A program made the position numbers and the translations under genes. Shown in pieces: positions 32,710 to 47,897 of a stretch of 64,000 nt of DNA. This stretch comes from an uncultured bacterium (GTDB lineage Bacteria > Bacillota > Clostridia > Lachnospirales > Lachnospiraceae), in the NCBI GenBank assembly GCA_947383005.1, contig CANDBT010000001.1, positions 124,001 to 188,000 on the forward strand, written 5' to 3'. A model generated the notes under the pieces. It was not told where the DNA came from. It saw only the letters and a program-made list of their open reading frames with translations, and did not search any database. Numbering within the stretch: the first letter of the stretch is position 1; each line of letters starts with the position of its first letter.

Positions 32710-32759
32710 CCTGTCGTTATTTTTAATGTTATTTTTAATCCATGAAAGGGGGCGGGCTT

Positions 32760-34475
32760 ATGGGGGGGAGGCAAAGTGCCGATCTTGAGCGCAAAAAATT
32801 CTTTTCAGATCCGATTTTAATCAGCATGATTGTGGTGCTGCTGATATTTTTGGCGTTGTTTATTTTATATCCGCTTTTCATGTTGTTGGTGGATAGCTTT
32901 TTGGAGGAAGGGCGGATTACCTTTTCCGTATTCGAGAGAGTATTGAGTATGCAGCGGTTCCAGACGGCTTTAAAAAACACTCTGATGTTGGGGATGCTTA
33001 CCGGGATTGCTTCTACGGCTATTGGGCTTTTGTTTGCTTATGTGGAAGTTTATGTTAAACTGCGGACAAAAATATTGGAAAAGCTCTTTGCTGTTGTATC
33101 CATGCTGCCGGTAGTGTCCCCACCGTTTGTCCTGTCATTGTCAATGATTATGCTGTTTGGGCGCAGCGGTATCATTACCCGTTCGTTGTTAAAAATATAT
33201 GATTCGAATGTATATGGGCTGAAGGGTATCGCTATTGTGCAGACATTGACGTTTTTCCCCGTGTGTTATCTGATGCTTAAAGGGCTTTTGAAAAATATTG
33301 ATCCGTCATTGGAGGAAGCTACCCGGGATATGGGCGCCAGCCGCTGGAAAGTATTTACCAGCGTGACATTCCCGCTGCTGCTTCCCGGACTGGGGAATGC
33401 TTTTTTGGTGACATTTATTGAATCCGTGGCAGATTTTGCCAATCCGATGCTGATTGGCGGTTCTTACGATACTTTGGCGACTACGATATATCTTCAGGTA
33501 ACAGGGGCCTATGACTCTACGGGGGCGGCGGCGATGTCGGTAGTGTTGTTGTCGCTGACCGTGGTGCTTTTCCTGATTCAGAAATATTATCTGGAAAAAA
33601 AGACGGCAGCTACTTTGACTGGCAAAGCATCTCGTATGCGTATGCTGATTGAGGATAAAAGCGTGACTGTGCCGTTGACGATATTTTGCACTTTGGTAGC
33701 GGCTTTTGTGGTGCTGATGTACGTGATGGTCCCCTTCGGAGCACTGTTTACCTTGTGGGGCAGGGATTATAGCTTGTCGCTGAAATGGTTCCAGTATATG
33801 ATGAAGACCAGCGGCCTTAAAGCATTCAAAGATTCTTTCGTATTATCGCTGATTGCATCGCCGCTGACGGCTTTCTTGTCCATGGTTATCGCTTATCTGG
33901 TGGTGAAAAAACGTTTTCGCGGAAAAGGTTTTATTGAATTTGTCTCTATGCTGGCTATGGCAGTGCCGGGAACGGTATTAGGCATCGGTTATATCCGGGG
34001 TTATGCGAACGGCTTGTTTCGGACAGGTCTGATGAGCGGATTATATGGGACAGGATTGATTCTGATTATCGTATTTATTGTGCGGAGTTTGCCCACGGGA
34101 ACAAGGAGTGGTATTTCTGCCTTGCGTCAGATTGACAAATCAATCGAAGAATCGGCTTATGATATGGGGGCCAATTCGGCCCGGGTGTTTATGACGGTTA
34201 CTTTGCCGCTGATTAAGGATTCGTTTTTCAGCGGCCTGGTTACGGCATTTGTGCGGAGCATTACGGCGATTTCAGCGATTATTTTGTTAGTGACGCCGGA
34301 TTTTTTGCTGATTACCTGCCAGATTAACGAGCAGGCCGAAAAAGGGAATTACGGAGTAGCTTGTGCTTATGCGACTGTGCTGATTGCCATTACTTACGGT
34401 GCGGTTTTGGTTATGAATACTCTGATTAAATTTTTTGGTGTCAGCAGAAATATCAAATCGAAGGAGGAAGCATAG
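32760..34475 (+). CDS. ABC transporter permease, fused two-domain (FbpB/AfuB type)
   Basis: 571 residues from the ATG at 32760, which follows AAAGGGGGCGGG; an ATG at 32742 lies ahead of that site. About twelve membrane helices are arranged as two repeated permease halves. Each half has an EAA loop: SLEEATRDMGASRWKVFTSV and SIEESAYDMGANSARVFMTV. This fused layout is typical of FbpB/AfuB/PhnU-like permeases. It forms the channel for the binding protein and the ATPase next door; the ATPase start follows directly. Confidence 0.92.
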   Translation: MGGRQSADLERKKFFSDPILISMIVVLLIFLALFILYPLFMLLVDSFLEEGRITFSVFERVLSMQRFQTALKNTLMLGMLTGIASTAIGLLFAYVEVYVKLRTKILEKLFAVVSMLPVVSPPFVLSLSMIMLFGRSGIITRSLLKIYDSNVYGLKGIAIVQTLTFFPVCYLMLKGLLKNIDPSLEEATRDMGASRWKVFTSVTFPLLLPGLGNAFLVTFIESVADFANPMLIGGSYDTLATTIYLQVTGAYDSTGAAAMSVVLLSLTVVLFLIQKYYLEKKTAATLTGKASRMRMLIEDKSVTVPLTIFCTLVAAFVVLMYVMVPFGALFTLWGRDYSLSLKWFQYMMKTSGLKAFKDSFVLSLIASPLTAFLSMVIAYLVVKKRFRGKGFIEFVSMLAMAVPGTVLGIGYIRGYANGLFRTGLMSGLYGTGLILIIVFIVRSLPTGTRSGISALRQIDKSIEESAYDMGANSARVFMTVTLPLIKDSFFSGLVTAFVRSITAISAIILLVTPDFLLITCQINEQAEKGNYGVACAYATVLIAITYGAVLVMNTLIKFFGVSRNIKSKEEA

Positions 34476-35564
34476 ATGGAGAAGGAAAAGAAAGGTGTCA
34501 GGCTGGATCATATTTCTAAAATTTATAAAGATCCAAAGACGGGAAAAGAATTTTATGCAGTACAGGATACGACTTTGGATATTGAAGCAGGAACCTTTGT
34601 TACCTTGCTCGGGCCATCTGGCTGTGGGAAGACGACTACCTTGCGGATGATTGCCGGATTTGAAAGCCCGGATGAAGGGGAGATTTATCTGGGCGGGGAA
34701 CCGATTAACCATCTGACGCCCAACAAACGGGATACCGCTATGGTGTTCCAGAGCTATGCTTTGCTGCCTCATTATAATGTATTTGACAACGTGGCTTATG
34801 GTTTGAAGATCCGCAAACTGCCCAAGGAGGAAATACAAACGAGGGTAATGGATATTTTAAGGCTGGTGGAAATGGACGGTATGGAATCCAGAATGACCAA
34901 CCAGCTTTCCGGCGGCCAACAGCAGCGGGTGGCTTTGGCACGGGCATTGGTGCTGGAACCGGGAGTTCTGCTGTTTGATGAACCATTAAGCAATCTCGAT
35001 GCAAAACTGCGGGTTTCTATGCGGACGGAAATTCGTAAGATTCAGCAGAAAGTGGGAATTACGGCAATTTATGTGACTCATGATCAGTCTGAAGCGATGA
35101 GTATTTCGGATAAAATCATTATTATGAGTAAAGGGAAGGTAGAGCAGATCGGTACGCCCAGGGAGATTTATTATCGTCCCAATTCCCGGTTTGTAGCGGA
35201 CTTTATTGGCGAAGCCAATTTTTTGCATGCTCAGGTTTTATCACTGGATGGGGAAAAAGCCCAAATCCGGGTTGCCGGCCAGCAGCTGGAGGCGGGAAAT
35301 TTCATCGGCCTTAAAGCGGGCGATCAGGCATCCCTGGTTATCCGTCCTGAAGCAGTACGCCTGGCTTCGGAGGGATATCTGGAGGTGATGGTTACGTTAT
35401 CTACTTTTATGGGTTCCTATCAATATTATCAGGCAATGGTGGGAGAGATGGAAATTCAAATAACCGATTACAACCCGGTAAACCGTAAGATCTATCAGGT
35501 GGGCGAAAAGGCGTTTTTGGATTTCGATTCCCAGGGCGTATATTTGCTGCCTTTTACTGATTGA
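34476..35564 (+). CDS. ABC transporter ATP-binding protein (FbpC/PotA type)
   Basis: 362 residues; AAGGAGGAAGCATAG before ATG. Walker A GPSGCGKTT, Q-loop VFQSYALLPH, signature LSGGQQQR, Walker B VLLFDEPLSNLDAKLR, H-loop VTHDQSEAM. A C-terminal TOBE domain (FIGEANFLHAQV...VIRPEAVRL) marks the CUT2/Fe3+/spermidine group. It powers the importer. Substrate cannot be set from this subunit. Confidence 0.94.
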   Translation: MEKEKKGVRLDHISKIYKDPKTGKEFYAVQDTTLDIEAGTFVTLLGPSGCGKTTTLRMIAGFESPDEGEIYLGGEPINHLTPNKRDTAMVFQSYALLPHYNVFDNVAYGLKIRKLPKEEIQTRVMDILRLVEMDGMESRMTNQLSGGQQQRVALARALVLEPGVLLFDEPLSNLDAKLRVSMRTEIRKIQQKVGITAIYVTHDQSEAMSISDKIIIMSKGKVEQIGTPREIYYRPNSRFVADFIGEANFLHAQVLSLDGEKAQIRVAGQQLEAGNFIGLKAGDQASLVIRPEAVRLASEGYLEVMVTLSTFMGSYQYYQAMVGEMEIQITDYNPVNRKIYQVGEKAFLDFDSQGVYLLPFTD

Positions 35565-35616: not shown

Positions 35617-35728
35617 AGAGCCACATTATTAGTGAATTGCAACTAAATTATGAGTAAACTATAATCAAGTGGTAACGGCTCAAGGTTTGTCTGAACAGTT
35701 ACCTTAAATGAAAGAGAGGAATATTACC

Positions 35729-36784
35729 GTGAGGCAGTTTTTTGGAATGAGCCAAAGAGGCGACTTAAGTGAAGCTGTTCGTGGCCTTGTTAATCCTGAG
35801 CTAATCATGCTGATGTCCAATGATCGTCAGTTTGAGGAGCATGTAAAAGAATTACAAAAGCTTTATCCCAATGTGCCAAGTATCGGCTGTATCGGAATGT
35901 GTTATGACACGAGAGTGGCGGAACATGGTGTGGGGGTGGTTGCTTTTTTTGGCGGAGTGAGCGTCGCGGCGAACGTATTGGAACAAGTGTCCGTTATGCC
36001 GATTAAATATATCCAGCGTTTGGAAGAGGATTTGAAGGCAGTCCAGGCATCGGAAAGAGACACTATTTGCATAGATTTCTGCGCAGGTAATGACGCTTGT
36101 GTATTGACAACGATGTACACGGCTTTGGGGCGCAGAAATATTTCCCTGGTAGGTGGGACCGGAGACGGGGGAAAAGTATCTGCTAACGGCAGGGTTTATG
36201 AAGATGCAGTAGCTTACGCATTGATTAAAAATCTGAATGGACGAGTAAAGGCATACAAGGAAAATATTTATCACCGGCTGGATCAGCACCGTTTTGTTGC
36301 CTCCCGTACGGACAAAGCGAAATACATAATGGGCGCTCTAAACGGAAGGCCGGCAAAGCAGGTCTATCAGGAGATTCTTCATATATCTGAGAAAGAAATA
36401 CAAACACAGACGTTTAAAAATCCCTTTGGGCGGATTAACGGGGATGATACCTGCATTATTTCCATTAAAGAGGTAAGCGGTAATGCCCTGGCCTGCTTTC
36501 GGCAGGTCAATGATTCGGATGTGCTGATTATGTTGGAATTGGGAGATTACCGGGCCATTGTAAAAGAAACTATCGGGACTATCTGCAGAGAATTCCCCAG
36601 GCGGTCGGCCGTATTTTCCGTAAACTGTCTGTTCCGGTATAAGTTGTTTACGGAAAATGGCTATATGCAGGAATATTTGAAAGAGATGAGCGCTCTGGGC
36701 AGCCATGCGGGCCTTGTAGGATATGGGGAACATTATAACAATCAGTTTGTCAATCAGTCGATGACCTGCGTGGTGTTTGAGTAA
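35729..36784 (+). CDS. FIST-domain sensor protein
   Basis: 351 residues from GTG at 35729, chosen because GAGAGG lies 9 nt upstream; an ATG at 35708 has no ribosome binding site. N-terminal FIST_N ([60 protein letters not shown]) and C-terminal FIST_C (SCNxx-like [39 protein letters not shown]). FIST domains are thought to sense small ligands, probably amino acids, and occur with chemotaxis or GGDEF modules. No membrane segment, so it senses cytosolic ligands. The chemoreceptor gene follows after 11 nt and lacks its own sensor. Confidence 0.88.
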
Positions 36785-36795
36785 GGGGGAGAGAT

Positions 36796-37716
36796 ATGTT
36801 GTTTCATAAAAATAATAAGCCGGATACGGAAAGAATGGATTTGTATCCGATTCTGTATATGACAGACAGTTTGAAAAAATATCATGCCCTGCTGGTAAAT
36901 AAGGAAGTGGAATCGCTGTGGGAATTGAATATGGTGGATAATTCTTTTGGCCATGTGCTGGGAGAGGCTGGAAATTTTCAGGAAAAGCTGCAGGAGTTTG
37001 AACAGCGTTTTTTGAGCGTAAATGAGGTTTCCGGTCAGTTTGCCCAGGTGAGAGATCAGATAGCCAAGTCCGTAGGCCAGGCTCAGGACGAAGTGGAGAC
37101 GCTTAAAGGGAGCGCTATGCAGGTTAAGGAACATTTTGGAGAAATGGGTGTTACATTTAGTGATCTGCTGGCGGCGGTGGAAGAGATTAAGCAGCATATG
37201 AGCAAGATTGTTTCCATAGCAAACCAAACCAATATCCTGGCGATTAATGCTTCTATAGAGGCGGCAAGAGCTGGTGAAAAAGGGAAAGGCTTTGCTGTGG
37301 TGGCGGCAGAGGTAAAGAAGCTGGCGGCGGAGATTAAAGATTTGGCGGCTGAGGTAGGAGCCGGAATCAGAGATGTGGAAAACGGTGCGGATAAGCTGAA
37401 CGAGCGGATAAACAGTTCTCAGGAAGCTTTGGGCGAAAGCCTGGATAAGGTTCAGGAAACGTATGAGATGTTTGATCAGATTACTCAGTCAGCGGACGGG
37501 GCATCTTCGGTACAATCGCAAATATCTGCGGTAATCGGGGAATCTCAGACGGATTTGCAGGCGCTGTGCGGTTATTTTGATCAAATTAAGGATCAATATC
37601 AAGAGGTGGTAAAGCATATTAATAAAGCGAGCCGTTTGGGAACGACCAAAAGTACAATGTTTGAGGATGTAGATAATTTGTTATCACAGATTGAGCCGAT
37701 AATTAAAAAATCATAG
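36796..37716 (+). CDS. Soluble methyl-accepting chemotaxis protein
   Basis: 306 residues, no membrane segment, no HAMP. The helical tip [39 protein letters not shown] is split across residues about 138-175 and is the CheW/CheA contact region of MCPs. Flanking helices form the four-helix bundle. The first 60 residues ([18 protein letters not shown]-like) are not a known sensor. In the same operon as a FIST protein, which I infer to be its input. Target may be chemotaxis or another CheA-like path. Weak point: no che genes in the window. Confidence 0.87.
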
Positions 37717-37849: not shown

Positions 37850-38398
37850 ATGAAAGCTACAGGAATTGTGAGAAGAATAGACGACCTTGGACGTGTAGTA
37901 ATACCAAAAGAGATACGAAGGACTTTACGGTTGCGGGAGGGGACGCCACTGGAGATATTTACCGACCGGGAGGGGGAAATCATTTTAAAAAAATATTCTC
38001 CCATGGTGGAACTGACTGCATTTGCGATACAATATGCAGAAGCTATGGCTCAATCGACGGGCATGATGGTGTGTATTACGGACAGAGACCAGATTATTGC
38101 GGTATCCGGCGGTCCGAAAAAAGACGTGCTTCAAAAAAGCATCAGCAAACAGTTGGAAAATTTGATCAATGAGAGAGAAACAGTTGTCGCATCTAAAGAT
38201 GATAAACAGTTTGTGCCTATTGCTGCAGAAGAGTTGGAAGGCGTTACTTATGAGGCAGTAACGCCTATTATTTGTGAGGGTGACGCTATCGGGGCAGTTG
38301 CTCTTTTAAGCCGGGAACCTAAGACGAAATTCGGGGATATGGAAGTAAAGCTGATTTCTACAGCAGCAGGTTTTCTGGGAAGACAGATGGAAGGATAA
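37850..38398 (+). CDS. spoVT: Stage V sporulation regulator SpoVT
   Basis: 182 residues, GGAGGAA before ATG. N-terminal AbrB swapped-hairpin DNA-binding domain (MKATGIVRRIDDLGRVVIPK...LEIFTDREGEIILKKY), C-terminal GAF-like domain (residues 55-180, ending STAAGFLGRQMEG). In Bacillus it tunes forespore gene expression late in sporulation. Full length, highly typical, and it marks the organism as a spore former or recent descendant of one. Confidence 0.95.
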   Translation: MKATGIVRRIDDLGRVVIPKEIRRTLRLREGTPLEIFTDREGEIILKKYSPMVELTAFAIQYAEAMAQSTGMMVCITDRDQIIAVSGGPKKDVLQKSISKQLENLINERETVVASKDDKQFVPIAAEELEGVTYEAVTPIICEGDAIGAVALLSREPKTKFGDMEVKLISTAAGFLGRQMEG

Positions 38399-38453
38399 TG
38401 ATAGGGCAGGAGCCTGAAGAGTGATAAAAACATGGCTAATAAAAAGGATAAAA

Positions 38454-38482
38454 TTGACATTCAGTGCTTATAAGGTTATACT
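38454..38482 (+). promoter_or_regulatory. Strong sigma-A promoter of the PP2C-kinase operon
   Basis: TTGACA-17 bp-TATACT. Predicted start about 38489, some 18 nt before a terminator-like hairpin. Confidence 0.85.
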
Positions 38483-38506
38483 AATAATTGAATATGGAAT
38501 GACCGG

Positions 38507-38541
38507 CTGCACCTTATGGGTTTCATAGGGTGCAGTTTTAT
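38507..38541 (+). terminator. Attenuator-like hairpin in the PP2C-kinase leader
   Basis: CTGCACCTTATG (38507-38518) pairs with CATAGGGTGCAG (38524-38535) with one G-U, then TTTTATC. It lies between the promoter and the first gene, so it either attenuates the operon, ends spoVT read-through, or ends a roughly 50-nt RNA. Confidence 0.75.
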
Positions 38542-38592
38542 CATTTTCTATGTGTCTTCTATGTGGATTATATGTTGAGGCGGGGATAAATT

Positions 38593-39387
38593 ATGAATAT
38601 AATAAAGGAAATACAGGAAGAAAATCCTTTCTATCAGATCGGTTCCCGAGGCATTATCGGAACAAGAGACTATCAGCAGGACCTTGGATATTATTATACA
38701 GGAACGGATTGCGTGTTTTCCATTATTTGTGATGGCATGGGCGGGATGGAAGGCGGAGAGAGAGCCAGTCGGGTTGCGGTAGATCAGTTCGTGCAGGATT
38801 TTCGTCAGGAGCGGGGGGTTGTCAATGTGCCGGAATTTTTGGTAAAAGAAGCCGGACGGCTCAATCAGGTAGTTGCAGGACTGAAAAACAGCAGCGGCGC
38901 GCCGCTGCAGGGCGGTACAACCCTGGTGGCCGTGTATTGTTCAGGGAATCAGATGTATTGGGTATCTGTAGGGGACAGCCGAATTTACCTGATTCGAGGC
39001 AATCGGATAAAACCGCTCAACCGGGAACACAATTATCGTCTAACCTTACAGATGAACTTAGAGAGCGGCTTGATTAATAAAGATACGTATGACAGAGAAT
39101 CGACGGGGCGTCAGGCAGACGCTTTGGTCAGTTATATCGGTATGGAGCAGTTAGCCATGGTGGATGTGAGCCAGGCACCGATTATTATGCAGGAAGGCGA
39201 TGTGGTTGTGCTGTGCAGTGACGGCGTGTGTAAGAGTCTGAATGACAGCCAGATTTGTGCTATGGTACGTGATAATGATGTGGATATGGATATTGCTGCC
39301 GACAGGCTGACAGGTATGGCTATGCGATATGGTGCGAGAGGCCAGGATAATACAACGGTGATTTTAGTAAAATACCTGGGAAGGTAG
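38593..39387 (+). CDS. PP2C-type Ser/Thr protein phosphatase
   Basis: 264 residues, GGCGGGG before ATG. PPM-family motifs: GTRDYQQDLGYYY, FSIICDGMGGMEGGERAS (metal-binding DGMGG), YWVSVGDSRIYLIRGN, VVLCSDGVCKSL, GARGQDNTTVILVKYL. It should dephosphorylate Ser/Thr targets in the cytosol using two Mn2+/Mg2+. The three kinases follow; together they resemble the PrpC/PrkC pairing of Firmicutes but with extra receptors. It is 12 nt upstream of the first kinase. Confidence 0.94.
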   Translation: MNIIKEIQEENPFYQIGSRGIIGTRDYQQDLGYYYTGTDCVFSIICDGMGGMEGGERASRVAVDQFVQDFRQERGVVNVPEFLVKEAGRLNQVVAGLKNSSGAPLQGGTTLVAVYCSGNQMYWVSVGDSRIYLIRGNRIKPLNREHNYRLTLQMNLESGLINKDTYDRESTGRQADALVSYIGMEQLAMVDVSQAPIIMQEGDVVVLCSDGVCKSLNDSQICAMVRDNDVDMDIAADRLTGMAMRYGARGQDNTTVILVKYLGR

Positions 39388-39399
39388 GAGGATGCAGGA

Positions 39400-41538
39400 A
39401 TGCTTTGCCTAAATTGCATGAAGCCTTTTGAGGAAGCTTACGGCGTTTGTCCATACTGCGGCTATATTCCCGGGACCGCTCCGGAGGAGGCATACCATCT
39501 GCATCCGGGAACCATACTTCACGGCCGTTATATTGTGGGAACTACGGTGGGATTTGGAGGATTTGGCATTACTTATCGCGCCTGGGATGCGACTTTGGAG
39601 AAAAAGGTTGCTATCAAGGAATATTATCCCAATGGTATCGTGAATCGGGTACCGGGACAGAAAACGGTGATTATTTATTCGGGCAATCGTGCGGATGAAT
39701 TTCAGAAGGGGAAGCTGCGTTTTTTGGCGGAAGCCAGAAATATGGCCCGTTTTAATACCCACCCGAATATTGTCAATGTTCATGAGTTTTTTGAAGAGAA
39801 TAGTACGGCATATATTGTTATGGAATTTTTGGAAGGCATCTCCTACAAACAATATATTGAAAATTGCGGCGGACATGTGGACTGTAATACAGCGGTAAGT
39901 GTCGCGGTTTCTGTTCTGGGAGCGCTGAAAGAACTACATAAGGAGAAAATTATTCACCGGGATGTAAGTCCGGATAATATTTTTCTTATCCCTGATCAAC
40001 CGGGCGCCAGCCAATACCGGGTGAAGCTGATTGATTTTGGCGCGGCGAGGTTTGCTACGGGAGAAGAGGAGAAGACCTTATCGATTATTTTAAAGCCGGG
40101 CTATGCTCCGCCGGAGCAGTACCGAAATAAAAGCAGACAAGGGCCGTGGACCGACATCTATGCTGTGGGGGCTGTCCTTTATTGTGCAATTACCGGGGTG
40201 AGGCCGGAGGAATCGGTAAACCGTCAGATAGAGGACCGGTTGGAACCGCCAAGCCGTTATGTGCAGGGGCTACCACAGTATTTGAATGACAGTATTATGC
40301 GTGCTATGGCTTTAAATCAGGAACTTCGTTTTCAAAATGTGGATCAATTCCGGGAGGCGCTTCAAAATCAGACTAAGGTGCTTAGTGTCAAATCTGAGAT
40401 CCGGAGAAGGAAGTTCATCCGTAATGCGGGGATCGGCGGGGTCTGTCTGGTTTTATTGATGGCGGTATTGGTGTGTGAGGGGATTTATGTGCATAAACGG
40501 CAGGCACTTTATCATCTGGATGCGGAGATTTCCGTGGAGATTCCGGATGTGAATGCTCAGAAGACCAAAGAAATCCAGAAAGCAGGTTCTATGGGAAAAG
40601 ATTCGGAGGGGCTGAGGGCCATTGAACTGGAACCGTCCCAGCAGATGCTTGAAGAAATGCTTGAGGAATATGAGAGACGTTTTGAACAGGTTAAGGTTTC
40701 TTTATCGGTCAGCGAATATTCGGGAAATACCGGGTCATATGCCGAATTGCTGAAGGAGAAGGCAGCATCAGACACTCTTCCGTCCGTATTTGAAACCAGT
40801 GGAATTAGCGCAGAAGATAAAGAAATCTGGGAGCATTTGGGCACATTGGATACGACCTATAACACAATCAATAAGAGGGATTATTTTTTTGTTGGAGATA
40901 AAGGGTTTAAAGACTATTTTGAAAAGGAAAAGAAACAGATTCCCATTGCCTTTCAGGCTCCCGTGCTGTATGTAAATACTCATATGATACCAGATACCAG
41001 CGATTTGCCTTCCGCCCAGAGCCTGGATATGCTGAAATATGAGGGCGAACCCAGTTACTGCGTAAGCGTTCAGAATCGGGAAATGTACCGAGAAGCTTTT
41101 GGGGGGTCAAAAGCTGCAGAGGAGTTTAAAAAACCGGAGGCTGGTGAAAAAGGATACGAATTGTTTTTGCAAAAAGAAAAAGCTTATTATTTGGGAAATA
41201 CTGATGATTACGAGGCAATTAGGGCAAGTTTGGGTGGGATTTATGAAATGGTAGTTTTAGAAGAACTCCAGGAGGCGGGGAAAGTTAAAGGCCGTTTTAC
41301 TCATTTTTGGAGTATTGACGCCTCGCTGGAAGGGGACGATAAGGAAGCTGCCGACTGCCTGGTATTTTATTTGATGGGAGAGAATGCCCAGGATGTATTT
41401 AACCTTCAAAACGGCAATGGGCTGTCTTTTAATAAGCGGATGCTGAAAACTTATGTGAAGGGTAATAATGAATTTCAGAAGGTTTTGGATAAGCTGGATA
41501 GTTTGAAAATGGAATACAGAGAGGAATACGGAGTATGA
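39400..41538 (+). CDS. Ser/Thr kinase with zinc ribbon and solute-binding-like ectodomain
   Basis: 712 residues. Cys3, 6, 17 and 20 form a short zinc ribbon. The kinase domain (about 43-325) has an intact glycine loop VGFGGFG (50-56), Lys73, HRD (186-188), Asn193, DFG (212-214) and PGYAPPEQY. A single membrane helix lies at 343-364. Outside, about 380-712 do not contain PASTA repeats but resemble an ABC-type extracellular solute-binding protein (AELLKEKAASDTLPSVFETS, IPIAFQAPVLYVNTHMIPDT, then a long alpha/beta domain). I infer a receptor kinase that reads a ligand through a periplasmic-binding-protein fold. AGGTAGGAGG precedes the ATG; its stop overlaps the next start (ATGA). Confidence 0.9.
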   Translation: MLCLNCMKPFEEAYGVCPYCGYIPGTAPEEAYHLHPGTILHGRYIVGTTVGFGGFGITYRAWDATLEKKVAIKEYYPNGIVNRVPGQKTVIIYSGNRADEFQKGKLRFLAEARNMARFNTHPNIVNVHEFFEENSTAYIVMEFLEGISYKQYIENCGGHVDCNTAVSVAVSVLGALKELHKEKIIHRDVSPDNIFLIPDQPGASQYRVKLIDFGAARFATGEEEKTLSIILKPGYAPPEQYRNKSRQGPWTDIYAVGAVLYCAITGVRPEESVNRQIEDRLEPPSRYVQGLPQYLNDSIMRAMALNQELRFQNVDQFREALQNQTKVLSVKSEIRRRKFIRNAGIGGVCLVLLMAVLVCEGIYVHKRQALYHLDAEISVEIPDVNAQKTKEIQKAGSMGKDSEGLRAIELEPSQQMLEEMLEEYERRFEQVKVSLSVSEYSGNTGSYAELLKEKAASDTLPSVFETSGISAEDKEIWEHLGTLDTTYNTINKRDYFFVGDKGFKDYFEKEKKQIPIAFQAPVLYVNTHMIPDTSDLPSAQSLDMLKYEGEPSYCVSVQNREMYREAFGGSKAAEEFKKPEAGEKGYELFLQKEKAYYLGNTDDYEAIRASLGGIYEMVVLEELQEAGKVKGRFTHFWSIDASLEGDDKEAADCLVFYLMGENAQDVFNLQNGNGLSFNKRMLKTYVKGNNEFQKVLDKLDSLKMEYREEYGV

Positions 41539-43880
41539 AGCGTTGTCTGAATTGCATGCAGGAATACGAAGAGAGTTACGGAGCGGCTTGTCCGAATTGC
41601 GGCTATCGAGGGGAGATAAGTCAGGATGACGGCCTCTCCTTAAAACCGGGGACGATTCTTCAAGGCAGATATATTATCGGTACGGTTATACGGGTCAGGG
41701 ATATTGATATTTTCTATAATTGCTGGGATGCTCTGTTTGACAGGAGAGTGACAGTACAGGAGTATTTCCCCAGATATTGCGCAACTCGTTCCGGAGCCAC
41801 GGATATAAGCATTTATGAGGCTAAACGTGATCAATACCAGAAAGGGCTGAAATTATTTTGTGTCCAGAGCAGGGAGATGATCCGGCTTTACAAGGAACAG
41901 GATGTGATTAGTTACCATGGGGTTTTCCAGGAAAACAGGACAGCCTATGCGGTAATGGATTATCAGGAAGCCCCGACGCTGAAAACATGGCTGGGAAGAA
42001 AAATCCCCGAGGAAAGGGACGTCTTGGAGATTATGCGAATGGCCATCCGAGCGGTGGATAAATGCCATCGGCTGGGAATTTACCACGGGATGATCGGGCA
42101 GGATACTTTTTGTGTTACGGAACAAGGGACGCTGGTTTTAAAAGATTATGGCAGTTGGCGGTACGTGAGCGGGAAACCAGGTATCGTCAATTATGGCAAG
42201 GTGTGTGCAGATACAGACGTATTCGGCCTGGCGAAGATGTTTGCCCAGATTGTGACGGGAATGGAAACGGATGATGCGAAAATCTTAATAAAAAATTTGT
42301 CTGGCAGCAGCGTTCATCTCAGCAAACCGGTGATAAACGCGCTTCGCAGCGCATTGTCCTATGAGACGAAAAGCCTTGGTGATTTTTGTAAAAATTTGGA
42401 TGGAAAAAAGGGAAACAGGCAAAAAGCGTTGGCGTTGCCACATTGGCTGTATCTGGCGGCAGGTGCGGCAGCTTTGATTGTTGTGGTTTCCGTGACGGCT
42501 TATGCGTTTGTCCGGTTTAAAGGTTCAGGGATGGAATTCAAGTTCCCCTGGGCAAAAGAGAACCAGGAGGAGATGCAAGAGGACGAGATGGTGCGAGTGC
42601 CGAATGTGATCAATATGGACAGGGAAGAGGCAGAAGAAAGGCTGAGGGAAAGCGGCCTGCTGATGAACTGGATAGAGATTACTTATAATGAAGATGTGCC
42701 GGAAGGAAAAGTTTTTCACCAGGGGAAGAAAGAAAATACTTTGGTAGAAAGAGGGACCATTGTTGATGTCCGTGTCAGTATGGGAAAAAAGAAGGGCGTT
42801 TTCCCGGCGATTATTGGATTGGAAAAAGAAGAGGCCGAGCAGCTTTTAAAAGATGCTGGTTTTTCGAAGATCAAATTTGATGAAACGACAGAAGAAGGGA
42901 TGCCGAATACCGTCCTGCGTGCTAATGCCAATGCAGATGAAATGCTTGAGCTTGATACGGAAATTCTTGTGGAAATCTGTCGGTTTGAAGATGGGCAGGG
43001 ATGGGCAGGGGGCCTTCCGCCTGTTCCGGATGTGTGTGAGAAAACCGTGGAGGATGCGAAGTCGCTGTTGATTGAACAGGGGTTTTTGGTATATATTGTC
43101 GAAGAACATAATTCGATGGATAAAGGCTTGGTCTTTGCCCAGTTGCCGGAAGCAGAAAGCCAGCCAGGGGATAAAAACCTGGTAACTCTCTATGTCAGTT
43201 TAGGAGAAGAAAAGATTTATATGAAGAATGTGTTGCTGATGACGGAGAAGCAGGCAAGGGAAGAGATCGAAGCTTTGGGGCTGAGAGTCGGTAAAGTGAC
43301 GGAACAATTCAGCGATTCCGTGCCTAAAGGAAAAGTGATGTCCCAGAGCGTTCCCCAGAACCAGGAAGTGAAAAAAGGAAGAAAGATTGATTTGGTTATC
43401 AGCAAAGGGCGGGAACAGCAAGTATCTGCTCCGGCATCCCCCAAGCCTGCAACTACCGCGGAGAAAACTTCGGAAACAGAAATCGTAGAGCCAAAGGCGC
43501 CGGAAACGGCAGAAACGGCAGAACCTGAGACTTTACCGACGGCAGAATCTGTGCCGCCACGGCAGAACCAGGGGCCTGCAGGACAAAAACCAGGTTCGGC
43601 GCCAGTGTCCGAATCTTTGCAAAGGCCGGGAGGGGCGGAGCAGCCACAGGAGACGCCGGCGCCGCCTATAGCTCCTGAGCCGCAGCCCTCTGAGACGATA
43701 ATGGAACCCGAACCGCCAATGGCTCCCGAGCCTCCGGGAACGCCTCAGCCGCAGCAGACGGCGCCCGGGCTGCAGGGGGCGTCACAGGATTCTCCCGCAT
43801 TGCCGCAGGGAGGAACTCCGCCAGAAGGTTCGGTTCAGGAAGAAAAGGATATGTCTTTGTCTGACGAGCGAAGCGTATGA
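41535..43880 (+). CDS. PASTA pseudokinase with zinc ribbon
   Basis: 781 residues. Zinc ribbon at Cys4, 7, 19, 22. The kinase domain is degenerate: the glycine loop is lost (TVIRVRDIDIF), the VAIK lysine is Gln75 (VTVQEYF), HRD is His-Gly-Met (184-186), the catalytic-loop Asn is Thr191; only DYG (204-206) remains of the metal site. Membrane helix at about 304-326. Then four PASTA domains (VRVPNVINMDREEAEERL ... KIYMKNVLLMTEKQAREEIE) and a 150-residue Pro/Glu-rich tail. PASTA domains bind muropeptides or beta-lactams in PrkC/PknB. Likely a non-catalytic partner of the flanking kinases. Confidence 0.92.
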   Translation: MKRCLNCMQEYEESYGAACPNCGYRGEISQDDGLSLKPGTILQGRYIIGTVIRVRDIDIFYNCWDALFDRRVTVQEYFPRYCATRSGATDISIYEAKRDQYQKGLKLFCVQSREMIRLYKEQDVISYHGVFQENRTAYAVMDYQEAPTLKTWLGRKIPEERDVLEIMRMAIRAVDKCHRLGIYHGMIGQDTFCVTEQGTLVLKDYGSWRYVSGKPGIVNYGKVCADTDVFGLAKMFAQIVTGMETDDAKILIKNLSGSSVHLSKPVINALRSALSYETKSLGDFCKNLDGKKGNRQKALALPHWLYLAAGAAALIVVVSVTAYAFVRFKGSGMEFKFPWAKENQEEMQEDEMVRVPNVINMDREEAEERLRESGLLMNWIEITYNEDVPEGKVFHQGKKENTLVERGTIVDVRVSMGKKKGVFPAIIGLEKEEAEQLLKDAGFSKIKFDETTEEGMPNTVLRANANADEMLELDTEILVEICRFEDGQGWAGGLPPVPDVCEKTVEDAKSLLIEQGFLVYIVEEHNSMDKGLVFAQLPEAESQPGDKNLVTLYVSLGEEKIYMKNVLLMTEKQAREEIEALGLRVGKVTEQFSDSVPKGKVMSQSVPQNQEVKKGRKIDLVISKGREQQVSAPASPKPATTAEKTSETEIVEPKAPETAETAEPETLPTAESVPPRQNQGPAGQKPGSAPVSESLQRPGGAEQPQETPAPPIAPEPQPSETIMEPEPPMAPEPPGTPQPQQTAPGLQGASQDSPALPQGGTPPEGSVQEEKDMSLSDERSV

Positions 43881-43995
43881 GTGTTTGGAAAAGCCGGTTT
43901 TGAGTGACGGTTCAGGGTGATTCAGAGGATTGACAAAAAGATGAAATTACGACCAACAAACCTGAAATGGCAGGGGAGGAAGGACAGAGGGGACT

Positions 43996-46494
43996 ATGAG
44001 CAAATTATGTATGGGATGTATGAGGGAATATGGCGAAGAGTTCAATATATGCCCTTATTGCGGTTACGTCGAGGGTACTCCGGCGAAGCAGACCTATCAT
44101 ATTTCGCCGGGACATATTCTCTATAACCGTTATATTGTCGGTAAAGTGCTGGGGTTTGGCGGTTTTGGGGTTACTTATATCGGGTGGGATTATCTGATGG
44201 GTTGGAAGGTGGCTATCAAAGAGTATCTGCCTGGAGAATTTGCCACACGTATGCCGGAACAGGAAAGAGTGACGGTTTATACCGGCTACAAGGAAGAGCA
44301 ATTCAGGGAAGGTCTGAAGAAAACCCTGGATGAGGCAAGACGTCTGGCCAAATTTGATATGGTACCGGAAATCGTGAAAATTTATGATTGTTTTGAAGCG
44401 AATGGAACGTCATATATTATTATGGAATATCTGGAAGGAATGTCACTGAAGGAATATCTGGAGATTCATGGGAAAATGCCGGTGGAACAAGCTCTTCCTA
44501 TAATATTTCAGATTGCCGCGGCTATGGAGCAGGTACATAGGGAAGGAATCCTTCACAGAGATATTGCACCGGACAATATTTATGTGCTGAATCCAGACGA
44601 ACCGGATAATCTTAAAGTAAAGCTTTTGGATTTCGGCGCTGCCCGTTATGCTACATCAAAACACAGTAAAAGCTTGTCGGTGATTATTAAGCCGGGTTAT
44701 GCACCTACGGAACAATACCGCAGCCGGGGAGACCAGGGAACATGGACGGACGTGTATGCTTTGGCGGCAGTATTTTATAAAATGATTACGGGTATCACTC
44801 CGGAAGATGCCATGGAACGTGATGTGGAAGACGAATTGAAAAGGCCGTCCAAGCTGGGGATAAAGATTGCCAAGCCGGTGGAAAATGCCCTGATGAATGC
44901 ACTTAATGTCAAAATCCAGGACAGGACCCAAACCATGGAGGCTTTTTCGCAGGAACTGACCTCTGCCGAGGTGGCGGAGCGGGCAGTAACAAAGGATAAA
45001 AATATAGTGGCGAAAATTCCCCGGTGGTTCCTTACGGTGGCTGGAGGAGGCGGAATTGTTATTGCGGTGGCGATTGTATTAGTGCTTACCGGGGTGATTC
45101 AAAGCCATATCGGTTCGGATGCCAGCAAACTGGATAAGAATATGGTGCGGATGATCAATGTGGTTAATTATGAGGCTGATGAGGCGGAAAAGGAACTGCA
45201 GAAAAGCAGCCTGAATATGTCGAGAAACGGAATGATTTATTCAGAAGATATACCAATCAATGTGGTTTGTTATCAAGGAATAAAGGAAAATGACCTGGTA
45301 GAAAAAGATACGGTACTGGCAGTTTGGATCAGCAAAGGGAAACGTAAGGAGATTGTTCCGGCTGTAAAGGGCCTGCAATTGGATGAAGCACGGCGGCTTT
45401 TAGAGGAAGCCGGTTTTAAAAATATAAAGACGGAAGAAAGCATGGAGGCTGGTGTTTACCAGTCTGTTCTGGCAATTAGTGAGGAACCGGGCGCTAATGT
45501 GGAGGTAAGTAAGGAGATAATCCTTACCGTGTGTATGAATACCGAGAATCAGGGAGGAGACGCTTCCATTCAGGTGAAGGTGCCTGACGTGACAGGAAAG
45601 GACAGGGAACAGGCGCAAAAAGAAATGGAAGAGGCCGGTTTTTTGATTAACTGGGTGGAAGAGAATAGTGATAAACCGGAGAATATGGTGATTGCCCAAT
45701 CTCCGGAAGCCGGCGAAGAAGTAAATAAAGGTTCTTATATAACGGTTCGGGTCAGCAAAGGCGAACAGAAGATTTACATGAAGAATGTGCTTCTGATGAC
45801 GGAGGCAGAGGCCAGAAGTACAATACAGTCTTTGGGATTAAAAGTGGGGAAAGTGACAACGGCTTACAGTGATTCTGTAGAGAAAGGTAAGGTCATTTCT
45901 CAGAGTATTGCCCAGGACGAAGAAGTAAAACGAGGAGATACGGTTAATCTGGTAATCAGCCAGGGAAAGCAAAATACCGAAACTTCACCAACAACAGCTG
46001 ACCCGGAAGAATCCAGACGGCAGGAGGAGGCGGCAGAGTCCAGCAGACAGGAAGAAATCCGCAGGCAAAGGGAGGAAATGTCCCGCCAGGCGGAAGAATC
46101 CTCAAGAGCTGCGGAGTCAGAGGCAGCAGCCAGGAGAGCTTCGGAGGAAGAAGCAGCCAGGAGAGCTTCAGAAGAAGAAGCAGCCAGGAAAGCTTCAGAA
46201 GAGGAAGAAGCAAGAAGGCAGACCGAGACGGAAGAGGGCAGCACTTCGCCTGTGGTATCGGGCTCCGGCGACAGAACGGTATCACAAAAGGTGCGTGTAG
46301 TCGATGTGGTAGGCATGACTGAGGAAGAGGCAAAAGCGGCAATTATTGAAGAAGGATTTACTGTGGGCAGTGTAACGCGGGAATATCATGATTCCGTACC
46401 GGCAGGTTGCGTGATTTCTCAAAGCCCGTCCGGCGGGAAAAAGACGAAGTTGGAGTCCAGGGTAAATCTGGTCATCAGCAGGGGGCCAAATTGA
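43996..46494 (+). CDS. PASTA Ser/Thr kinase with zinc ribbon
   Basis: 832 residues. Zinc ribbon at Cys5, 8, 19, 22. The kinase looks active: GFGGFG loop, Lys75, HRD (187-189), DNIYVL, DFG (212-214), PGYAPTEQY. Membrane helix at about 343-369. Outside are five PASTA domains; the fourth (KIYMKNVLLMTEAEARSTIQ) is nearly the same as the fourth in the pseudokinase, showing duplication. An Arg/Glu/Ser-rich coiled region (about 675-755, RRASEEEAARRASEEEAARK-type repeats) separates PASTA 4 and 5. It resembles PrkC/Stk1, which sense cell-wall fragments. Confidence 0.94.
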   Translation: MSKLCMGCMREYGEEFNICPYCGYVEGTPAKQTYHISPGHILYNRYIVGKVLGFGGFGVTYIGWDYLMGWKVAIKEYLPGEFATRMPEQERVTVYTGYKEEQFREGLKKTLDEARRLAKFDMVPEIVKIYDCFEANGTSYIIMEYLEGMSLKEYLEIHGKMPVEQALPIIFQIAAAMEQVHREGILHRDIAPDNIYVLNPDEPDNLKVKLLDFGAARYATSKHSKSLSVIIKPGYAPTEQYRSRGDQGTWTDVYALAAVFYKMITGITPEDAMERDVEDELKRPSKLGIKIAKPVENALMNALNVKIQDRTQTMEAFSQELTSAEVAERAVTKDKNIVAKIPRWFLTVAGGGGIVIAVAIVLVLTGVIQSHIGSDASKLDKNMVRMINVVNYEADEAEKELQKSSLNMSRNGMIYSEDIPINVVCYQGIKENDLVEKDTVLAVWISKGKRKEIVPAVKGLQLDEARRLLEEAGFKNIKTEESMEAGVYQSVLAISEEPGANVEVSKEIILTVCMNTENQGGDASIQVKVPDVTGKDREQAQKEMEEAGFLINWVEENSDKPENMVIAQSPEAGEEVNKGSYITVRVSKGEQKIYMKNVLLMTEAEARSTIQSLGLKVGKVTTAYSDSVEKGKVISQSIAQDEEVKRGDTVNLVISQGKQNTETSPTTADPEESRRQEEAAESSRQEEIRRQREEMSRQAEESSRAAESEAAARRASEEEAARRASEEEAARKASEEEEARRQTETEEGSTSPVVSGSGDRTVSQKVRVVDVVGMTEEEAKAAIIEEGFTVGSVTREYHDSVPAGCVISQSPSGGKKTKLESRVNLVISRGPN

Positions 46495-46574
46495 TACCAA
46501 TACAGATAAATCGGGGGCTGTGGCATAGAATTTGCTTCGGCCCCTAAGGTTTGCCTGATGAGAGAGGAAAACAC

Positions 46575-47897
46575 ATGCTATTTTCAAGAAAAGATTTGGT
46601 GAGGCTTTTGGGGCCGTTGATTGTAGAACAGGTGTTGGCTGTATTAGTCGGCATGGTGGATGTAGTGATGGTTGCAGCAGTAGGAGAAACCGCAGTATCC
46701 GGTGTAGCTCTGGTAGATTCTATCAGTATTTTAATAATCCAGCTTTTGTCCGCATTAGCTACCGGTGGAGCCGTAGTATGTTCTCAATATATGGGCAAAC
46801 AGCAGTCGGAGGCGGCTTGTTATGCCGCAGGGCAACTGGTTTTTATTACAGCTGCATGTGCGGTCTTTTTTGCTTCGGTTGCTCTTTTTGGGGAACGTCA
46901 TTTATTAAGGCTGATTTTTGGGCAGGCAGAGAAAGCAGTTTTGGACAATGCGGCCACTTATTTTCGGATCACTGCTCTTTCCTATTTGTTTTTGGCGTTG
47001 TATAATTCGGGTGCTGCTTTGTTTCGTTCTATGGGCAATTCACGGGTATCGATGGTGGTATCCTTGTTTATGAACGGAATCAATATTGTTGGTAACGCAA
47101 TTTGTATTTACGGTTTTCATATGGGGGTGGAGGGAGTTGCTTTTCCTACCCTGATTTCCCGGATTGTGGCTGCTATAATGATATTATGGCTGATACGGGA
47201 TCGGGACAATACAATACATATATCCAATATTAGCGTTTTGCGTCCGAACAGGGAGATAATGAAAAAAATTCTGAGAGTAGGGGTTCCGAATGGCCTGGAA
47301 ACAGGAATGTTTCAATTTGGGAAAATCGCTCTTCAAAGTCTGGTATCGACTTTGGGTACGGCAGCTATTGCCAGTTTTGCAGTGGCCTCTAATTTGGTGA
47401 CTCTTCATTATCTGCCGGGAAATGCCATAGGATTGGGGCTGATAACCATAGCCGGCCGTTGTGTAGGGGCAGGGGAATATGAACAGGCGAAGCAATATAC
47501 AAAAAAGCTGCTTTTGCTGGATTATGCCATGTTATTTGTTATATGTACCATAATGGCTCTTTTCAGCCATCAGATTGTAAGAATGTATAATCTGTCACCA
47601 GAAGCAGCGGTTCTAACCAGAGGAATGATTCTCATGCACTCTTGCGCGATGATTGTGTGGCCGTTGGCTTTTCCGCTGCCAAATACCCTCCGGGCCGGGC
47701 TGGATGCCCGCTTTACCATGACAGTATCGATATTTTCCATGTGGGCTTTCCGTTTTGGATTTGCTTATCTGTTTGTAAAAGTATGGAATACAGGAGTTGC
47801 CGGTATATGGTTTGGCATGTTTATTGACTGGATTTTCCGGGCAATTGTATTTGTGCTCCGCTTTCATGGATTCACTTCCCGGGCGCAGCAAATTTAA
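46575..47897 (+). CDS. MATE-family efflux transporter
   Basis: 440 residues from ATG at 46575 (GAGAGG upstream); a TTG at 46551 is less likely. About twelve membrane helices in two halves. GPLIVEQVLAVLVGMVDVVM and RVGVPNGLETGMFQFGKIAL are the paired N- and C-half signatures of MATE/NorM-type Na+ or H+ antiporters. Substrate unknown. It follows the kinase operon by 80 nt and could be in the same transcript. Confidence 0.92.
   Translation: MLFSRKDLVRLLGPLIVEQVLAVLVGMVDVVMVAAVGETAVSGVALVDSISILIIQLLSALATGGAVVCSQYMGKQQSEAACYAAGQLVFITAACAVFFASVALFGERHLLRLIFGQAEKAVLDNAATYFRITALSYLFLALYNSGAALFRSMGNSRVSMVVSLFMNGINIVGNAICIYGFHMGVEGVAFPTLISRIVAAIMILWLIRDRDNTIHISNISVLRPNREIMKKILRVGVPNGLETGMFQFGKIALQSLVSTLGTAAIASFAVASNLVTLHYLPGNAIGLGLITIAGRCVGAGEYEQAKQYTKKLLLLDYAMLFVICTIMALFSHQIVRMYNLSPEAAVLTRGMILMHSCAMIVWPLAFPLPNTLRAGLDARFTMTVSIFSMWAFRFGFAYLFVKVWNTGVAGIWFGMFIDWIFRAIVFVLRFHGFTSRAQQI

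Follow-up and report, generated by a model that had tools for sequence, protein, structure and literature searches.

A conserved zinc-ribbon pseudokinase, a candidate non-catalytic partner in a small receptor-kinase cassette of Lachnospiraceae

Introduction

The stretch of DNA considered here, called the window, comprises 64,000 nucleotides from an uncultured, gut-type bacterium of the family Lachnospiraceae (GenBank assembly GCA_947383005.1, contig CANDBT010000001.1, positions 124,001 to 188,000 of the forward strand), and is part of contig C1 of a genome of 5.0 Mb in 136 contigs. It carries a cassette of four consecutive genes encoding a PP2C phosphatase and three membrane kinases, K1, K2 and K3, all of which begin with a zinc ribbon of the pattern CxxC-x(10-11)-CxxC. 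The middle kinase, K2, is dead by sequence, and the question raised by this locus is what a pseudokinase does between two kinases that look active, and whether it is a working part of the set or a broken gene. To our knowledge, the functions of bacterial pseudokinases are largely unknown. Comparison with its relatives indicates that K2 is a genuine, long-conserved pseudokinase subunit, and its role may be that of a non-catalytic partner or co-receptor in a small receptor-kinase cassette, a reading to which we give about an even chance of being right. The composition of the set, described in an earlier note on this DNA as PP2C, receptor kinase, pseudokinase and PASTA kinase, is confirmed by the open reading frames, Pfam matches, ribbons and hydropathy, and the ectodomains are as that note claimed.

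The Pseudokinase Family

K2 (41535..43880, plus strand, 781 amino acids, assigned by its open reading frame, Pfam and residue alignment) bears four PASTA domains, and its match to the Pfam family Pkinase is borderline, with 31.5 bits for the whole protein and 34.1 bits for the head alone at a cut-off of 31.7. It is without the Lys of the VAIK motif (VTVQ in K2), the Asp of the HRD motif, the catalytic Asn (HGMIGQDT), the G-loop and the APE motif, and retains the Asp of the DFG motif, which reads DYG. Judged from these residues K2 is catalytically dead, as had been noted earlier, since the ATP Lys and the catalytic Asp and Asn are all replaced.

The same replacements are found throughout a family of relatives, whose genomes are mostly drafts and bins. 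The clusters are classified by the ectodomain of the kinase that corresponds to K1, which resembles a solute-binding protein (SBP): in type A, the window-like clusters, this ectodomain is 51-57% identical to that of K1, and in type B, the clusters that resemble one on contig C29 of this genome, 21-25%. The alignment compared 80 heads, 19 of pseudokinases and 61 of active kinases, each group including one fragment. All 19 pseudokinase rows have other residues in place of the catalytic Asp and Asn, and the VAIK Lys is gone in 18 of the 18 readable ones; the active rows keep Asp and Asn in 61/61 cases and Lys in 60/60 readable cases, one row, on C29, reading HCD for HRD. The Lys has become Gln in 10/10 readable type A pseudokinases and Met or Glu in 8/8 of type B, and the DFG Asp is kept in 11/11 of type A and lost in 7/8 of type B. 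The Arg of HRD is Gly in all 18 complete pseudokinases versus none of 60 active heads, and the ribbon is retained in all 18 complete pseudokinase heads. A twentieth pseudokinase, from genome G383 and added later, reads VQIL and HGQISAES, with Lys, Asp and Asn likewise replaced. HG for HR was considered as a unique mark of the pseudokinases and was rejected, because a further ribbon kinase that looks active and neighbours a type A cluster (L104 17652-19988) reads HGD for HRD with Lys and Asn intact. DYD pseudokinases are defined, in the accessible part of PMC12599244, by a change of the ATP Lys to Arg together with a DYD motif. These marks are not seen in the present family, in which the Lys is changed to Gln, Met, Glu or Leu and the other motif reads DFG or DYG or is lost.

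In a tree of 84 heads, which leaves out the G022b kinase fragment, the G007 pseudokinase fragment and G383, the 18 complete pseudokinases form one clade with support 100/99. The ratio of nonsynonymous to synonymous substitution rates (dN/dS) of the pseudokinases is 0.07-0.25 in three of four pairs, one of them with a dS of 2.5, and the fourth pair is saturated; the neighbouring genes, in four pairs each, give 0.05-0.08 for the SBP kinases (3/4 pairs), 0.10-0.21 for PP2C and 0.04-0.17 for the PASTA kinases. The pseudokinases are thus under purifying selection in the measurable pairs. The single clade, the open frames and the low dN/dS in three of four pairs disfavour K2 as a decaying gene, and that relatives have kept the dead kinase suggests that it works together with its neighbours and is not a broken gene.

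Gene Order and Distribution

Conserved synteny had been set beforehand as the test on which the earlier interpretation could fail, and a conserved order was found in relatives. The order PP2C, SBP kinase, pseudokinase, PASTA kinase is present in 13 of 24 genomes of the genus, G000 included, being split over two contigs in G007, and outside the genus in G134 and G383, which belong to other genera, and in the records L096, L098, L099 and L100. Ten of the 24 genus genomes contain type A and eight contain type B; 15 have at least one of the two types, and in 13 there is a cluster with a pseudokinase. SBP kinases were counted in 29 loci: in 20 of these PP2C, SBP kinase and dead kinase follow one another in this order, eight are without a dead kinase and one is cut; G275 is not counted, its ectodomain having matched no SBP reference. 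A pseudokinase follows in all 20 loci where PP2C stands directly before the SBP kinase and in none of the seven loci without that PP2C (Fisher p 1e-6, for loci that are related and a rule set after seeing the table; G022b, cut upstream and with no pseudokinase downstream, and G063, cut downstream, are left out). A similar PP2C is present in the locus without being adjacent in G009 and G040, and elsewhere in the locus in G183. In seven loci, four of type A (G018b, G022b, G009 and G006) and three more distant ones (G040, G183 and G340), the SBP kinase is accompanied by a second kinase and no pseudokinase separates the two, so that the three-kinase complex envisaged in the earlier note is not supported as a necessity.

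The family appears to be narrowly distributed. Two peptide patterns of the type A ectodomain, searched in a collection of 84,980 species, gave 14 loci, 13 of them from records of metagenome-assembled genomes, all labelled as Lachnospiraceae, Clostridiales, Eubacteriales or Clostridium-type; nine are genus loci already counted and another is G134. When the SBP profile was run over a sample of the family with roughly one genome for each genus, it matched G000 and 5 of the 298 others. The pseudokinase profile, with at most five candidates scored per genome, exceeded 300 bits in just three of 397 genomes of the family, namely G000 (twice), G134 and G383 (the last with 11% contamination), and in G000 alone of 392 genomes of the order; the next matches lie at 220.

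The fullest gene order is PP2Ca, small FHA, VWA-FHA, ribbon-kinase-FHA, PP2C and ribbon-kinase-SBP, followed by an optional FHA-ABC transporter, the pseudokinase, an optional extra PASTA kinase, an optional small FHA, ribbon-kinase-PASTA and a choline-binding-repeat protein. The window holds only the part from PP2C to the PASTA kinase, and by this comparison of gene content its set is related, in trimmed form, to larger PP2C/FHA/VWA clusters. Two loci of other genera of the family (L148 and L149) contain four to five ribbon kinases in a row, accompanied by PP2C, FHA and VWA genes, a wider class of such islands.

Kinase Heads and Phosphatase

K1 (39400..41538, plus strand, 712 amino acids, an open reading frame with a Pfam Pkinase match of 6e-35) and K3 (43996..46494, plus strand, 832 amino acids, Pfam Pkinase 1e-31) are zinc-ribbon receptor kinases with PpkA-like heads. 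Among PDB sequences, the best match of the K1 head is PpkA with 174 bits (next 91) and that of the K3 head is again PpkA with 144 bits (next 94), and the profile of the K2 family also has PpkA as its best PDB match, at 70 bits, within the best 60 of 442 matches. The PpkA structure in question, 5hnv, is presumably of Serratia origin. As a control, the genome's own canonical PrkC on contig C18 reaches PknB with 229 bits, and PpkA is outside the best 60 matches listed. Against the NCBIfam model for Stk1/PrkC (NF033483, cut-off 450) K1 scores 175.6, K2 174.7 and K3 345.9, and against that for Stp1/PrpC (NF033484, cut-off 230) the window PP2C scores 136.5, all under the cut-offs. Kinship with PrkC/PrpC, which the earlier note had taken from known pairs, is rejected because the two active heads are nearest to PpkA among PDB sequences and the genome's own PrkC is nearest to PknB. 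PASTA stretches, a trait of the Stk1/PrkC-type ectodomain, number four in K2, five in K3 and none in K1. The phosphatase (38593..39387, plus strand, 264 amino acids, an open reading frame with a Pfam PP2C match of 1e-12) has its best match among PDB sequences in 5d2u/2j82 (78 bits), which we take to be tPphA, with PppA at 60 and Stp1 at 45 bits.

The zinc ribbons, read from the sequence of the plus strand, are CLNC-x10-CPYC in K1 (39406..39459), CLNC-x11-CPNC in K2 (41544..41600) and CMGC-x10-CPYC in K3 (44008..44061). They had been supposed to assemble the three kinases, an idea that is not supported, since the same ribbon is found in five other kinases of the genome: three are without a further kinase in the 15 kb examined (on C9, C2 and C31) and two form a near pair on C4. 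The genome also contains a relic of a ribbon-family kinase at C2:51952-53123 (L015, L016), in two pieces and interrupted by stop codons.

Ectodomains and Gene Junctions

All three kinases have one transmembrane segment predicted from hydropathy. That of K1 (amino acids 344-362, 40429..40485, plus strand) is followed by an SBP-like ectodomain (40486..41535, plus strand), which has no Pfam match of its own and is recognized by alignment to paralogues. The type A ectodomain profile matches the type B paralogue profile in hhalign with 99.9% probability (E 1e-37, 304 columns), and the type B paralogue on C29 matches SBP_bac_8 at 1e-11. In the mixed A and B ectodomain alignment SBP_bac_8 is matched by 8 of 17 members, K1 not being among the eight, and the mixed profile weakly reaches sugar-binding proteins of the PDB (best 5e-5) over its first third. 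The K1 ectodomain therefore appears to be kin to solute-binding proteins (SBP_bac_8/1), indirectly, via its paralogues. In K2 the segment (amino acids 308-326, 42456..42512, plus strand) leads to an ectodomain of four Pfam PASTA domains and a Pro/Glu-rich tail seen in the sequence (42513..43877, plus strand). In K3 (segment at amino acids 346-364, 45031..45087, plus strand) it leads to PASTA domains, a charged spacer and a last PASTA domain (45088..46491, plus strand), five stretches being matched by Pfam and the spacer read from sequence.

The junctions within the cassette are 12 nt between PP2C and K1, a 4-nt overlap between K1 and K2 and 115 nt between K2 and K3. With gene starts chosen at the ribbon, the stop of the SBP kinase and the start of the pseudokinase share 4 nt in 10 of the 11 loci of type A, the exception being G011 with a 5-nt gap. 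The same junction measures 12 in G383, outside the genus, and 5, 5, 26 and 18 in the type B loci where the two genes are direct neighbours; an FHA-ABC gene lies between them in four of the eight type B loci.

The membrane form of the pseudokinases varies by hydropathy: some have a PASTA ectodomain, some a bare tail anchor (L096, L098 and L100), and some no transmembrane segment, none being found in 8/8 of type B. It follows that the head is the constant part. The ectodomains do not share the history of the heads, and a single clade of pseudokinase ectodomains is rejected (p-AU, the approximately unbiased test, 1e-52). The ectodomain is sister to that of the PASTA kinase in the same locus in G007 (88% identical), G012, L104 and G383 (on a long branch), and close by in G008. 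The nearest PASTA-kinase ectodomain comes from the same locus in five of nine cases, compared with a shuffled mean of 0.41 and none as high in 20,000 shuffles, and the match fails in G011, G016 and L099. The heads are nearest to the PASTA kinase of the same locus in one of nine cases, which is no excess. These observations suggest that the pseudokinase head pairs with the SBP kinase, and that its optional ectodomain is kept in tune with the PASTA kinase, either by selection or by gene conversion.

FHA Genes and the Type VII Link

FHA-type genes are found in 20 of the 29 related loci, and the genome itself has 11 FHA matches, of which eight are on C29. The C29 locus (L020 8805-20000 and L021 1-17400) is type VII-like and has four ribbon kinases, one of them dead. 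It encodes an EssC with FHA (1657 amino acids), WXG100 proteins, VWA-FHA, FHA-ABC and two PP2Cs. An EssC of this kind (E <= 1e-40) occurs in 8 of the 24 genus genomes, exactly those with a type B cluster. Cluster, EssC and WXG100 are on the same contig in C29, G014 and G018, and in G018 that contig also carries a type A pair that has no pseudokinase; in the other five type B genomes EssC is on a different contig of a draft, G022 being in short pieces, and G022, though EssC-bearing, matches no WXG100. EssC was found in none of the seven type A-only genomes (G006-G009, G011, G012 and G016), and WXG100 is unmatched in six of these, G011 having matches. Neither EssC nor WXG100 is present beside the window kinases; both are on the genome's own C29. 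Because type A-only genomes are without EssC, the window version need not serve a type VII system, and the role proposed for K2 does not rest on the linkage to EssC. In G022 the FHA-ABC gene is split over two frames (L069 3899-6221), a true break or an assembly error.

Proposed Role and Rival Explanations

The four genes probably form one transcription unit. K1 and K3, as PpkA-type kinases, would sense the outside via different ectodomains, solute-binding-like in K1 and PASTA in K3, and would phosphorylate clients inside the cell, and the PP2C would reset the signal. K2 would be a non-catalytic partner, made in step with K1 via the 4-nt gene overlap and pairing with it by the kinase-fold head, and in the PASTA-bearing lineages it may also act as a co-receptor, meeting the PASTA kinase outside the cell. 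Proteins with FHA domains would most likely be the output, as they are in the threonine-phosphorylation pathway of type VI systems; they are proposed as clients because FHA genes stand in so many related loci, one branch of which co-occurs with the FHA-bearing type VII ATPase. Since none is near the window cassette, its clients would be encoded at other sites, such as the C29 cluster of this genome. Of the earlier idea that the pseudokinase joins the two kinases, a non-catalytic partner stays plausible from conservation, the 4-nt coupling and the ectodomain matching in other loci, and a necessary complex is not supported.

Several observations weigh against this proposal. Eight SBP-kinase loci do without a pseudokinase, and PASTA-less pseudokinases exist, so co-receptor action cannot be the basic function. 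The K2 ectodomain is 44% identical to that of K3, its nearest PASTA kinase is that of L096 and it is sister to the L099 pseudokinase, so that the matching is not seen in the window itself; where it is seen, gene conversion between adjacent PASTA genes could be its source in a selection-free manner. The tree program warns of long branches, which may strengthen the pseudokinase clade, and the pseudokinase heads diverge faster than their neighbours, K2 being 38-52% identical to its type A relatives versus 60-81% for K1. As to the clients, none of the genome's 11 FHA matches lies in the window, and cluster and EssC are on one contig in only three of the eight genomes (C29, G014 and G018).

The alternative that survives best, though it seems rather unlikely, is that K2 is an adaptor for docking FHA proteins that acts on neither kinase, its PASTA part serving only for targeting to the wall. 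Phosphorylated MviN with FhaA is said to be a precedent for such docking. The genes of pseudokinase and PASTA kinase have a small FHA gene between them in 8/8 type B loci and also in G008, G007, L099, L104 and G383, and, in the part of PMC9600267 available, the pseudokinase domain of YukC co-purifies with the FHA region of YukB. However, the FHA gene is absent from the window, L096, L098 and L100, and an adaptor of this kind leaves the ectodomain matching to the PASTA kinase unexplained. That matching would be accounted for if K2 were a decoy sharing the ligands of the PASTA kinase and damping its signal, with the ectodomain either tuned to this end or copied passively by gene conversion. A dead head with a matched ectodomain would suit a decoy, and in G007 (L064 2-5204) the pseudokinase and PASTA kinase genes are 87% identical in DNA over 947 bp of the ectodomain, the heads being without a long match. 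We consider it improbable nonetheless, since soluble and tail-anchored pseudokinases cannot be ligand decoys, the gene overlap joins the pseudokinase to the SBP kinase instead, and the ectodomains of K2 and K3 differ. An ordinary wall-sensing PrkC/PrpC pair whose kinases were duplicated, with K2 as a copy in decay, is already disfavoured and very unlikely: PP2C and PASTA are both there, but the heads are PpkA-like, the genome has a separate PrkC, the scores fall short of the Stk1/Stp1 cut-offs, and the pseudokinases form one clade with low dN/dS in the measurable pairs. That K2 is alive with a SelO-like activity is least credible, since the HG and DYG it has in common with SelO (HGVMNTDN and DYG in the accessible part of PMC12599244) go with the absence of the Lys and Asn that SelO retains, and most type B members have lost the DFG Asp as well.

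Comparison with Known Systems

The cassette resembles the type VI threonine-phosphorylation pathway (PpkA, PppA, Fha and TagQRST) in its PpkA-closest heads and in joining a receptor kinase with a PP2C. In that pathway PpkA is the positive and the phosphatase PppA the negative regulator, and phosphothreonine is read by FHA proteins, according to the accessible part of PMC3953482. The clusters of the relatives, like the type VI pathway, add FHA and VWA genes and, in half of the type B loci, the FHA-ABC transporter. Unlike it, the window cassette has several kinases, varied ectodomains, zinc ribbons and a pseudokinase, its PP2C is nearer to 5d2u/2j82 than to PppA, and an FHA partner is not in the locus. 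The type B genomes with their FHA-bearing EssC are similar to the type VII subtypes T7SSc-T7SSj, which have kinase, PPM phosphatase and FHA parts, whereas the window cassette is without an adjoining type VII gene; the part of PMC11217815 that was available names at most one kinase per system and does not contain the word PASTA, so the C29 locus, with four, has more kinases than the subtypes described there.

K2 is like EssB/YukC, the pseudokinase of T7SSb, in layout, with an N-terminal dead kinase head, one transmembrane segment and an outer part. EssB, however, is a part of the secretion system, while K2 combines a zinc ribbon with PASTA domains and has type A relatives in genomes in which EssC was not found; EssB is not among the best 60 of 442 PDB matches of the K2-family profile. 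PrkC/PrpC (Stk1/Stp1) is similar in PASTA ectodomain and PP2C partner and differs in head family and in the family cut-offs. In the GlnH-GlnX-PknG system of C. glutamicum, a solute-binding protein controls a Ser/Thr kinase (PMC9769921, in the part available); there the proteins are separate, while in K1 the solute-binding part and the kinase are fused. A literature search by title and abstract opening, with most subscription papers outside it, gave no zinc-ribbon pseudokinase cassette like this one.

Leader and Neighbouring Genes

A sigma-70-like promoter, TTGACA-17-TATACT, agreeing at 11 of 12 positions and found as a consensus match only, lies at 38454..38482 on the plus strand. The start at 38454 given in the earlier note is the first base of this site, and the first gene begins only at 38593. 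Sites of the same kind number 17 in 38300-46700 versus 11.3 expected. Between the promoter-like site and the PP2C gene, a pattern match gives a 15-pair hairpin with a T-rich tail (38505..38537, plus strand), at most about 25 nt from the site, which possibly is a leader attenuator or the terminator of spoVT. The neighbours, spoVT upstream and a MatE transporter downstream, are excluded from the set. A tie of the cassette to spoVT was rejected because spoVT is on another contig in the 14 other cluster-bearing genomes of the genus, which are drafts. Anti-phage defence was likewise rejected, as PADLOC gave only generic kinase matches (PD-T4-6 and MAD6) for K1-K3 and none for PP2C. Guanine + cytosine content shows no clear step at the cassette, with 44.7-53.7% in 1-kb steps versus 40.9-47.9% in the flanks examined, and peaks in the tail of K2. 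Further upstream, the window contains a FIST-domain protein (NosP-like, under the cut-off) beside a short MCP-signalling-domain protein, possibly a sensor pair (35708-37716), and an ABC permease with an ATPase, like importers of 2-aminoethylphosphonate or iron and under the family cut-offs (32742-35564).

Significance of the Cassette

In this cassette a pseudokinase stands in a conserved, small and testable set beside its presumed active partners. The evolutionary marks, that is, the clade of the heads, the ectodomain that tracks its neighbour in half of the loci and the gene overlap, predict proteins that touch each other. The cassette also ties Gram-positive receptor kinases with PASTA or SBP ectodomains to PpkA-type heads known from the control of a secretion system, and it can be compared with related versions from genomes that have a type VII ATPase and from genomes that lack one. 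Beyond this, the family may tentatively be read, with less likelihood than the partner role itself, as a bacterial receptor/pseudo-receptor pairing, in which a pseudokinase is translationally tied to one kinase and repeatedly re-fitted with the ectodomain of another. If this is true, a dead head would join two ligand inputs in one hetero-receptor, and one branch would be used alongside a type VII secretion system and another without it.

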